64,000 nt of DNA from Rhizobium sp. JAB6 (GTDB lineage Bacteria > Pseudomonadota > Alphaproteobacteria > Rhizobiales > Rhizobiaceae). The notes below the pieces were generated by a model. The model did no database searches and was not told the DNA's origin. It worked only from the letters and a program-made list of their open reading frames with translations. Location: positions 124,001-188,000 of the forward strand of contig NZ_PYJQ01000010.1 of assembly GCF_003024605.1 (NCBI RefSeq). The letters run 5' to 3'. Positions 58,577-61,391 of this stretch are shown here, piece by piece. Position numbers and translations under genes: made by a program. Numbering within the stretch: the stretch's first letter is position 1; every line of letters begins with the position of its first letter.

Positions 58577-59800
58577 TTACTTCGACAGGTTGCGCTTGGC
58601 GAGCGTGCGCAGGCGCAAGGCGTTGAGCTTGATGAAACCAGCCGCATCCTTCTGGTCGTAGGCGCCCTGGTCGTCTTCGAAGGTGACCAGCTTGTCGGAG
58701 TAGAGCGACTTCGGGCTTTCGCGGCCGATGACCATGACGTTGCCCTTGTAGAGCTTCAGTGTCACCTCGCCTTCGACATGCTCCTGGCTTTTGTCGATCA
58801 GGGCCTGCAGCATCTCGCGTTCCGGCGAGAACCAGAAGCCGTAATAGATCAGCTCGGCATAGCGCGGCATCAGCTCGTCCTTGAGGTGCGCGGCACCGCG
58901 GTCGAGCGTGATGGATTCGATGGCGCGGTGGGCCGCGAGCAGGATCGTGCCGCCGGGAGTCTCGTAGACACCGCGCGATTTCATGCCGACGAAACGGTTC
59001 TCGACCAGATCGAGACGGCCGATGCCGTTGTCGCGGCCGTACTCGTTCAGCTTCGCAAGCAAGGTCGCTGGGCTCAGTCGCTGGCCATCGATAGAAACGG
59101 CATCACCCTTTTCGAAGCCGATCTTGATGATGGTGGCCTTATCGGGGGCTGCTTCCGGCGAGATCGTGCGCATGTGCACATACTCGGGCGCTTCCTGGGC
59201 CGGGTTTTCCAGGACCTTGCCTTCGGACGAGGAGTGCAGCAGGTTGGCGTCGACGGAGAAAGGCGCTTCGCCCTTCTTGTCCTTGGCAACCGGAATCTGG
59301 TGCTTCTCGGCAAATTCGAGCAGATCGGTGCGGCTCTTGAACGACCAGTCGCGCCAGGGTGCGATGATCTTGATGTCCGGATTCAGCGCATAGGCCGAAA
59401 GCTCGAAACGAACTTGGTCGTTGCCCTTGCCGGTCGCGCCGTGAGCAATGGCGTCGGCGCCGGTCTTCCTGGCGATCTCGATGAGATGCTTGGAGATCAG
59501 CGGACGCGCGATCGAGGTGCCGAGCAGATAGACGCCTTCATAGACGGCATTGGCGCGGAACATCGGGAAGACGAAATCGCGCACGAATTCCTCGCGCACA
59601 TCCTCGATATAGATTTCCTTGATGCCGAGCATTTCGGCCTTCTTGCGCGCCGGCTCCAGCTCTTCGCCCTGGCCGAGATCGGCGGTGAAGGTGACGACTT
59701 CGGCGCCGAGCTCCGTCTGCAGCCACTTCAGGATAATCGAGGTGTCGAGACCGCCGGAATAGGCGAGAACGACTTTCTTCACGTCTTTATGTGATGCCAT
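58577..59800 (-). CDS. argG: argininosuccinate synthase
   Basis: 407 residues of the ATP-dependent synthase joining citrulline and aspartate in arginine synthesis. [19 protein letters not shown] is the PP-loop; [18 protein letters not shown] and [20 protein letters not shown] are conserved. The start is [11 protein letters not shown] at 59800. Confidence 0.97.
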
Positions 59801-59920
59801 GATGAGTTCCGTTTCAAGGCGGACCAGAGAAAATGCCCGCAAACCTGTATCGCGGAACTTTTAGCGAGATTATCGTGCGGCGCAAGGGGAGGCGAGAGCG
59901 GGACGTTTCTCAGGACAGCG

Positions 59921-60209
59921 TCAAAGATGGGCGCCGATATTCATCCGTCGATGCAGGATGCGGATGATCGTGACCGTTTCGACGCCATCCTTATAGATGA
60001 TGAAATGAGCCAGAGGCGAGAGCGAGATAATCCCGTTTGATGCCGCCGACCTTGCGATCGCGTGCGATGCCCTTCATCAAAGCATGACAACGATCACGCA
60101 GAGCGAAGACATAATCCTCCGCTTGCTCGTGACCCCATTTTTCCTCGGTATAGTCGTAGATTTGATCGATGTCGGACGTTGCTTTCGGCGAGAAGACCAA
60201 TTTCTTCAT
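59921..60209 (-). pseudogene. frameshifted ParE-family toxin gene
   Basis: The first frame gives MKKLVFSPKATSDIDQIYDYTEEKWGHEQAEDYVFALRDRCHALMKGIARDRKVGGIKRDYLALASGS, a normal ParE/RelE start, but runs into a stop after 72 residues (59991). The next frame continues HFIIYKDGVETVTIIRILHRRMNIGAHL and stops at 59921, which is the missing C-terminus. The break is in the serine codon near 60004, best explained by loss of two bases (or gain of one). Restoring it gives about 96 residues, the usual ParE length. The antitoxin gene just upstream is intact. Confidence 0.85.
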
Positions 60210-60451
60210 CGCTGATTGCGCAACTTTCTCTTTCCTTCGATAAATTCATAGAAGTCAAACTCCTCCGGCTCGCCCGAGGCCTCCCCTTCGGCGATCGCCG
60301 CTTCAATCGCATCTATTTCCGCCCGGCTACGGAATAATTTCAGCGCGGCGTCGATGACCTCGCTTGGCGAATCGTAATTGCCGTGGCTGATCTGCTCGCC
60401 GATAAACGCATCCATCTGCTCGTCGATTTCTATGGACACATGCTTTGTCAC
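60206..60451 (-). CDS. ParD-type antitoxin
   Basis: 81 residues, ribbon-helix-helix antitoxin: KHVSIEIDEQMDAFIGEQISHGNYDSPSEVIDAALKLF is the DNA-binding part, and the C-terminus (AIAEGEASGEPEEFDFYEFIEGKRKLRNQR) would neutralise the toxin. It overlaps the toxin gene by four bases. The gene is complete although its toxin is broken. Confidence 0.88.
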   Translation of the reverse strand: MTKHVSIEIDEQMDAFIGEQISHGNYDSPSEVIDAALKLFRSRAEIDAIEAAIAEGEASGEPEEFDFYEFIEGKRKLRNQR

Positions 60452-60536
60452 GAGCGCGACCTCCAGCGGTTTGACTTGATTGCCGAAAGTACCATATTCG
60501 GCGGCGACCGAACAATGCCTGAGGAGGGCTCCGCTC

Positions 60537-61391
60537 GTGACCGATATTCAAGACATTTTCAAGAAATCCAATGTTGCCGTCATCACCGGAGGCGCTTCCG
60601 GCATCGGCTTTGCCGCGGCGAAACATTTCGCATCCCTCGGCATGAGCGTCGTCATCGCCGATCTCGGCGGCGATCGCCTGGCCGAAGCGAGCGCTGAACT
60701 CAAGACGATTGCAGGCGAAGAGCATGTGATGGCCATCGAGACGGATGTCGCCAGCAAGGAAGCGCTGGAAGCACTGGAACGTGCCGTCCTGCAGCGTTTC
60801 GGCCGCGTGCATGTGTTGATGAACAACGCCGGCATCGGCCCGGAAACCTCCATCTTCAGCGCCCAGGCCGGCTGGGACGCGATCCTCGGCGTCAACCTGC
60901 TCGGCGTCATCAACGGCACGCGCGTCTTCGGGCCCGGTATGCTGGCGCACGGCAAGCCGGGCGTCATCATCAACACCGGCTCGAAACAGGGCATCACCAC
61001 GCCTCCCGGCAATCCCGCCTACAATGTCTCGAAGGCCGGTGTGAAGGTCTTTACTGAGGCGCTGCAGCACGAGCTGCGCAACACGGAAGGCGCCAGGATT
61101 TCGGCCCATCTCCTCATCCCCGGCTTCGTCTTCACAGGCTTGACCAAAGGCGATCGACGGGAAAAGCCTGCTGCCGCCTGGACGCCAGAGCAGACGGTCG
61201 AGTTCATGATGGAAAGCCTGAAGCGCGGCGATTTCTACATTCTTTGCCCCGATAATGATGTGGCCCGGCCGGTCGACGAACGCCGCATGCTCTGGGCTGC
61301 CGGCGATATTGTCGAGAACCGGCCGCCGCTGTCGCGGTGGCACCCGGACTATGCCGATCAATTCAAGGCTTTCCTCGAAAGGAAGGATTGA
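60537..61391 (+). CDS. SDR-family oxidoreductase
   Basis: 284 residues with TGGASGIGFAA cofactor motif, NNAGIG, the catalytic region INTGSKQGIT and YNVSKAG (YxxxK). I start at GTG 60537, where GAGGAGG lies about ten bases upstream; the frame runs 19 codons further with no ribosome-binding site. Substrate unknown. Confidence 0.88.
   Translation: MTDIQDIFKKSNVAVITGGASGIGFAAAKHFASLGMSVVIADLGGDRLAEASAELKTIAGEEHVMAIETDVASKEALEALERAVLQRFGRVHVLMNNAGIGPETSIFSAQAGWDAILGVNLLGVINGTRVFGPGMLAHGKPGVIINTGSKQGITTPPGNPAYNVSKAGVKVFTEALQHELRNTEGARISAHLLIPGFVFTGLTKGDRREKPAAAWTPEQTVEFMMESLKRGDFYILCPDNDVARPVDERRMLWAAGDIVENRPPLSRWHPDYADQFKAFLERKD

Follow-up and report, generated by a model that had tools for sequence, protein, structure and literature searches.

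ParDE modules of type II, such as ParDE1 of Caulobacter (3kxe), ParDE1 of M. tuberculosis (8c24), and ParDE3 of Mesorhizobium (5ceg), are arranged in the antitoxin-toxin order, with a short overlap of the two genes. Orphan antitoxins are also on record: the section of PMC7354431 that deals with them gives a Caulobacter parE pseudogene accompanied by ParD and a frameshift in Shigella yacB accompanied by Orf176. The pertinent part of PMC2654758 describes ccdO157 of E. coli as degenerating within the species (compare the decay treated in a section of PMC7167474). The anti-addiction idea, too, is already described in portions of PMC7354431 and PMC2654758. Toxin-first decay that leaves an orphan antitoxin is already known, and the case reported here belongs there. 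It resembles the Caulobacter and Shigella examples, as outlined in that section, in that the toxin was lost by frameshift or decay and the antitoxin is open; it differs from them in that the loss in Rhizobium recurs at two sites, in related species, and by mostly distinct lesions. As far as the cited part on ccdO157 goes, the likeness is that of a chromosomal module degenerating at a fixed place, whereas the toxin family and the host are different. A literature search found no paper on this locus; absence from print is not claimed.

The locus lies in the window, that is, the whole stretch of 64,000 nucleotides analysed from Rhizobium sp. JAB6. The source genome (G000; 4.0 Mb, 11 contigs) is 73% complete. 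Related ParD proteins were found in 12 named loci, namely eight from Rhizobium species (R. dioscoreae, R. leucaenae, R. tropici twice, R. hainanense, R. multihospitium, R. freirei, and R. rhizogenes), two from other Rhizobiales, and two from distant genera; 10 of the 12 are genomes of the present comparison, which carry G handles. Judging from these named loci, the window genome seems to be near R. tropici. In the window, parD and parE are located between argG and an SDR (short-chain dehydrogenase)-like gene. The names of both neighbours are putative and come from reading the sequence. The features are as follows:

58577 to 59842, minus strand: argG, the left neighbour, intact.
59921 to 60007, minus strand: 3' part of parE, residues 69-96 and the stop codon, in the other frame.
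59991 to 60209, minus strand: 5' part of parE, open over 72 aa, with the last four residues off the family frame.
60006 to 60008, minus strand: the lesion at codon 68, two bases fewer than in close relatives, with a placement ambiguous by a base or two.
60067 to 60253, minus strand: core of the cassette, comprising the ParD tail and the ParE head, replaced as a unit in seven relatives.
60206 to 60451, minus strand: parD antitoxin gene of 81 codons with a GTG start, frame whole.
60480 to 61391, plus strand: SDR-like gene, the right neighbour, divergent to parD.

The searches of Pfam and NCBIfam covered the two window proteins only. ParD matched the Pfam family ParD_antitoxin (PF03693) with 65.6 bits over residues 1-76 (cut-off 21) and the NCBIfam family TIGR02606 with 63.9 bits over residues 5-71 (cut-off 46.2). 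These matches span nearly the whole protein and exceed the curated cut-offs, which places it in the ParD family. The 72-aa ParE fragment matched ParE_toxin of Pfam (PF05016) with 30.9 bits (cut-off 23), at profile positions 2-48 of 89 only, and had no match in NCBIfam. By sequence, ParD and ParE of the window both match 3kxe and 8c24, and ParD also matches 5ceg. The antitoxin gene comes first and overlaps the toxin gene by four bases (60206-60209), parE starting at 60209, and both are on the minus strand; this is the layout of a type II toxin-antitoxin operon. Gene order, short overlap, profile matches, and the fold of a relative's intact ParE are shared with the ParDE modules mentioned above. 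Unlike 3kxe, 8c24, and 5ceg, the toxin of the window does not run in a complete frame to the conserved C-terminal end, as the frame is shifted at codon 68. A promoter-like site at 60471-60498 on the plus strand points to the SDR-like gene, with 0.5 such sites expected by chance; no site for parD was found in the promoter scan, which says little.

A frame-aware alignment with ParE of G021, the nearest relative, which is intact at 96 aa, revealed one lesion in parE. According to the earlier note on this DNA, the toxin is split by a 2-base loss in a serine codon near 60004. The comparison with close relatives that the note had proposed bears out the loss, which is located in codon 68 relative to G021, parE being intact across this site in G021, G168, and G072; only the position is different, since the lesion is placed here at 60006-60008. 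After codon 68, four foreign residues are followed by a stop after residue 72. The note was also correct in that the C-terminus is preserved in another frame and that the antitoxin is intact: residues 69-96 (28 residues) are readable in the other frame down to the stop codon at 59921-59923, and parD (60206-60451) is whole. Four of these 28 residues differ from those of G021.

The lost part contains 11 columns (H69, F70, Y73, L86, H87, R89, M90, N91, I92, H95, and L96) that are invariant in an alignment of 12 of the 21 intact relatives, the same 12 ParE sequences being used for the structure model. In the AlphaFold model of a relative's intact ParE (mean pLDDT of 93.3), the missing part corresponds to two strands (69-75 and 79-87) and a helix (92-95). 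The best matches of this model among solved structures were ParE-type toxins with Z values of about 14 to 16 (16.0 for 7ycs_A and 14.4 for 3kxe_A). Reports cited in the relevant portion of PMC11925232 link a truncated C-terminus of ParE to lower toxicity. The same portion describes C-termini grafted onto a non-toxic ParE that gave no toxicity, and therefore the very end of ParE is insufficient for toxicity. Since parts of the fold are lost and truncation had the effect described in these reports, we infer that the 72-aa remnant would not be toxic; the toxicity of the intact ParE itself is presumed from its family. The toxin gene of the window is probably dead.

In the whole module, ParD would act as a ribbon-helix-helix protein that represses the operon and covers ParE, and ParE would be a gyrase poison, as judged from the respective families. 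If the remnant is non-toxic, the module would no longer addict its host, and ParD would be heading for loss unless it is used otherwise. Taken as a whole, the locus is very probably a type II parDE module on the chromosome whose toxin gene was recently turned into a pseudogene, which left the antitoxin an orphan.

The split was observed in a single genome, which is 73% complete and in 11 contigs, so that a sequencing or assembly error, with parE whole in the living strain, should be considered. This is very unlikely. Coding-like ORFs of at least 80 aa were taken from the syntenic part of a relative as a control, and 0 of 55 from G021 and 0 of 53 from G168 were split by a frameshift in the window, with 1 and 4 ORFs, respectively, meeting stops; the numbers of ORFs meeting stops in five comparisons were 1, 3, 4, 1, and 4, not split by strand. 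An assembly error is unlikely because none of the 55 ORFs from the nearest relative was frameshifted. It should be mentioned that parE itself failed the filter for the control list, presumably owing to a low third-position excess, and therefore the control speaks for the general indel rate only. In addition, the lesion is outside any long single-base run, and similar lesions of parE are present in many other assemblies. The flanking segments of argG (855 bases) and of the SDR-like gene (847 bases) were each open in 28 of 28 genomes. When one-base losses were simulated in 300 trials each, 299 were caught in argG and 200 in the SDR-like gene.

The well-kept ParE tail in the other frame might also be taken to mean that the split frame is in use, either by way of programmed frameshifting or by yielding a short ParE whose only task is to bind ParD. 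This is hardly credible, as the close relatives have a single open parE frame and the positions of the lesions differ in most species. Programmed frameshifting was put aside because the lesions are at different places among the species. The tail is still readable because the lesion is young, rather than because of frameshifting.

The ParD search, with a cut-off of E 1e-8, was then extended to 148 genomes of the genus, 36 of which proved to have a ParD at the argG-SDR site. ParE was intact in 21 of the 36 and broken or gone in 15. The frame is shifted or stopped in eight (G000, G013, G152, G006, G068, G062, G110, and G111), with an identical stop in G110 and G111, and ParE is mostly or wholly gone in six (G107, G112, G028, G030, G099, and G146). 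The remaining one, G031, has lost five residues in frame and was counted as broken on presumption. Loss of the ParD frame was observed in 0 of 36; in-frame losses are present in G112 and in one of the two tandem ParDs of G146. The difference between ParE (15/36) and ParD (0/36) gave a Fisher p value of 9.6e-6. This asymmetry is partly expected because a cell that loses ParD while its ParE is live should die. The tree of the flanking genes includes 23 genomes, of which 8 are broken, and 7 changes are required on it to explain the broken or intact state of ParE.

The site is empty, with 172-198 bases, in six genomes examined (G125, G154, G166, G010, G095, and G015), and some genomes carry other inserts there. 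Gaps of 605 to 1937 bases between argG and the SDR-like gene, with no parDE visible, were found in G108 and G109 (L129 and L130), G133 (L131), G002 and G003 (L132 and L133), and G126 (L136), as if the site were a landing site for small modules.

The source genome has a second parDE outside the window (C7:455493-456024; L083 and L137), in which ParE is broken and ParD is intact. The neighbours of this second site are presumably acyl-CoA dehydrogenase-like and GNAT-like genes. Twenty-five candidates were aligned, and the 20 that have the acyl-CoA dehydrogenase flank were counted; G082, G087, G026, G120, and G088 were dropped as lying elsewhere. ParE is broken or gone in 14 of the 20 and intact in six (G077, G109, G010, G129, G095, and G003). 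Shifts or stops are present in 12 (G000, G021, G125, G166, G020, G072, G168, G152, G094, G106, G083, and G024), each placed differently by the alignment, and ParE is deleted in G145 and G103. The shift in G152 is at codon 6, where an alternative start is possible, and that in G166 is at codon 90, near the end of ParE. ParD is broken in two of the 20 (G094 and G024), with ParE broken in both; the Fisher p value for ParE (14/20) versus ParD (2/20) was 2.4e-4. The toxin was lost first, and repeatedly, at the argG-SDR site and at the second site, mostly via distinct lesions.

Two more ParE-like stretches are located outside the window at C3:56591-57802 of the source genome (L079 and L085). Their frames are apparently interrupted or short, and one of them has a stop within the profile match.

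The age of the breaks was estimated from omega on terminal branches, using triples of relatives. At the second site, omega of ParE was about 0.20 in 11 broken lineages and 0.21 in 6 intact lineages, and that of ParD was 0.11 in lineages with a broken ParE versus 0.09 in those with an intact one. The values for the argG-SDR site cover 19 of the 36 loci in three groups of close relatives, leaving out G020, G080, G006, and more distant loci, and their sums and ratios were made by hand. Here, the numbers of replacement and silent changes in ParE were 38.3 and 50.7 in 6 broken lineages (omega of about 0.23) and 86.3 and 125.8 in 13 intact lineages (about 0.21). The corresponding numbers for ParD were 18.5 and 44.5 in broken lineages (about 0.12) and 34.3 and 87.1 in intact ones (about 0.11). 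Since omega of ParE is alike in broken and intact lineages, the breaks, taken together, are young, and little drift is seen in the broken frames.

The branch of the window itself is somewhat different. Its ParE has 7.0 replacement and 5.0 silent changes (omega of about 0.41, from few changes), and its ParD has 6.0 and 6.0 (about 0.26). Both are above the group values (0.21-0.23 for ParE and 0.11-0.12 for ParD), the numbers being small, and intact lineages match the ParE ratio of the window, for example, G170 with 9.0 and 5.0. These values, small as the counts are, would also be in line with a lesion of somewhat greater age and a ParD on which constraint has begun to relax. The lesion had been called recent in the earlier note; this is true of the breaks as a group (about 0.23 versus about 0.21), whereas the own branch of the window, at about 0.41, is higher.

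The equal pooled omega of ParE in broken and intact lineages, together with lesions mostly distinct between species, might suggest that isolation and growth in the laboratory produce the lesions or select for them, which would account for most of them being at the tips. Such an origin in culture seems highly improbable, however, as some states are common to two genomes: an identical stop occurs in G110 and G111, and neither G145 nor G103 has a ParE. Large deletions of ParE exist as well. From these common states and large deletions, it follows that part of the ParE loss looks older than any culture.

Selection might be maintaining the orphan ParD, which would then either neutralise ParE toxins that arrive from outside or are paralogous (anti-addiction) or act as a regulator, but this is doubtful. 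At the argG-SDR site, ParE is wholly or almost wholly deleted and ParD is open in G107, G030, G028, G099, and G146, and at the second site ParE is deleted and a ParD is open in G145 and G103. Furthermore, G099 and G146 have tandem ParDs without a full ParE, although one of the ParDs in G146 has an in-frame loss. The omega value of about 0.11 for ParD would also agree with its being kept. However, most deaths of ParE are too young for omega to tell, and the low value is therefore not creditable to a toxin-free use. ParD is also broken in G094 and G024 at the second site, it shows in-frame losses in G112 and G146, its tail looks altered in G028, and the argG-SDR site is empty in the six genomes mentioned above.

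A close plasmid-borne partner was not found, either. Among 72,556 plasmid records, tblastn detected no counterpart of ParD at E 1e-6. For ParE, there were matches in 41 plasmid records, every one with less than 60% identity. An intact paralogue served by ParD was also sought in its own genome (73% complete) and rejected, the best candidate having 33% identity at E 0.01. The proposal of the earlier note that ParD protects against, or regulates, related modules thus found no support in these searches, though a protective role of the window ParD is possible.

Apart from the lesions, a stretch of about 200 bp within parDE, which encodes the tail of ParD and the first half of ParE, is replaced in seven relatives (G152, G031, G077, G096, G128, G145, and G006). 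The identity of this cassette to the window is 41-44% in the seven, and the stretch was unaligned to the window in G031, G152, G077, and G128. In six of the seven, the promoter side with ParD codons 1-65 has 82-94% identity to the window and the ParE end has 76-87%; in G006, the most distant one, these values are 80% and 67%. The contrast is visible between loci L030-L036 and L022-L029, in which both flanks are more alike.

When types A and B were assigned to the ParD tail and the ParE head by hand-written sequence patterns, the two agreed in 21 of 21 intact loci (13 A and 8 B). Two N-terminal types of ParD (TKH and GRL-like) were each found with both tails. Mapped on the best tree of the flanks, which is poorly resolved in places, the A/B state requires 6 changes, and the sister pair of G018 and G145, one A and one B, has a support of 99/96. 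In our reading, the ParD tail and the ParE head are a matched unit that moves by homologous exchange. The two tandem ParDs in G099 (L117) and in G146 (L118), which are without a full ParE, have tails of the A and B types.

In Mesorhizobium ParD3, specificity is set by positions including 60, 61, and 64, according to the parts of PMC7669267 and PMC7354431 that treat this protein. These positions had been expected within the cassette. By a hand count, they align with residues 53, 54, and 57 of the window ParD, and all three fall outside it; the alignment ends at chain residue 78 of ParD3, and position 80 is beyond it. The cassette may alter partner choice, and the term specificity cassette is used here as a conjectural label only, because the mapped ParD3 positions are outside.

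A wider and tentative reading, which is rather unlikely at present, is that the argG-SDR locus collects and re-tunes antitoxins: swaps of the cassette would change the partner type, toxins would be lost repeatedly, and antitoxins would be kept against circulating ParE. In such an antitoxin-collecting locus, the cassette would be swapped between species, with the DNA-binding region of ParD and the end of ParE staying in place, and the antitoxins would be kept singly or in tandem.

The case of the window alone is one more decayed toxin-antitoxin pair, which is an ordinary event. Together with the relatives, it becomes a replicated natural experiment, in which toxins have died many times at two fixed sites with antitoxins surviving next to them, and the exchange of the cassette moves matched halves of two proteins together. 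Of possible interest to a specialist are the repeated loss at two sites and the exchange of the cassette. With this set of loci, it can be tested directly whether the longer survival of antitoxins is due to selection or simply to time, and how the partner choice of toxin and antitoxin changes in nature.
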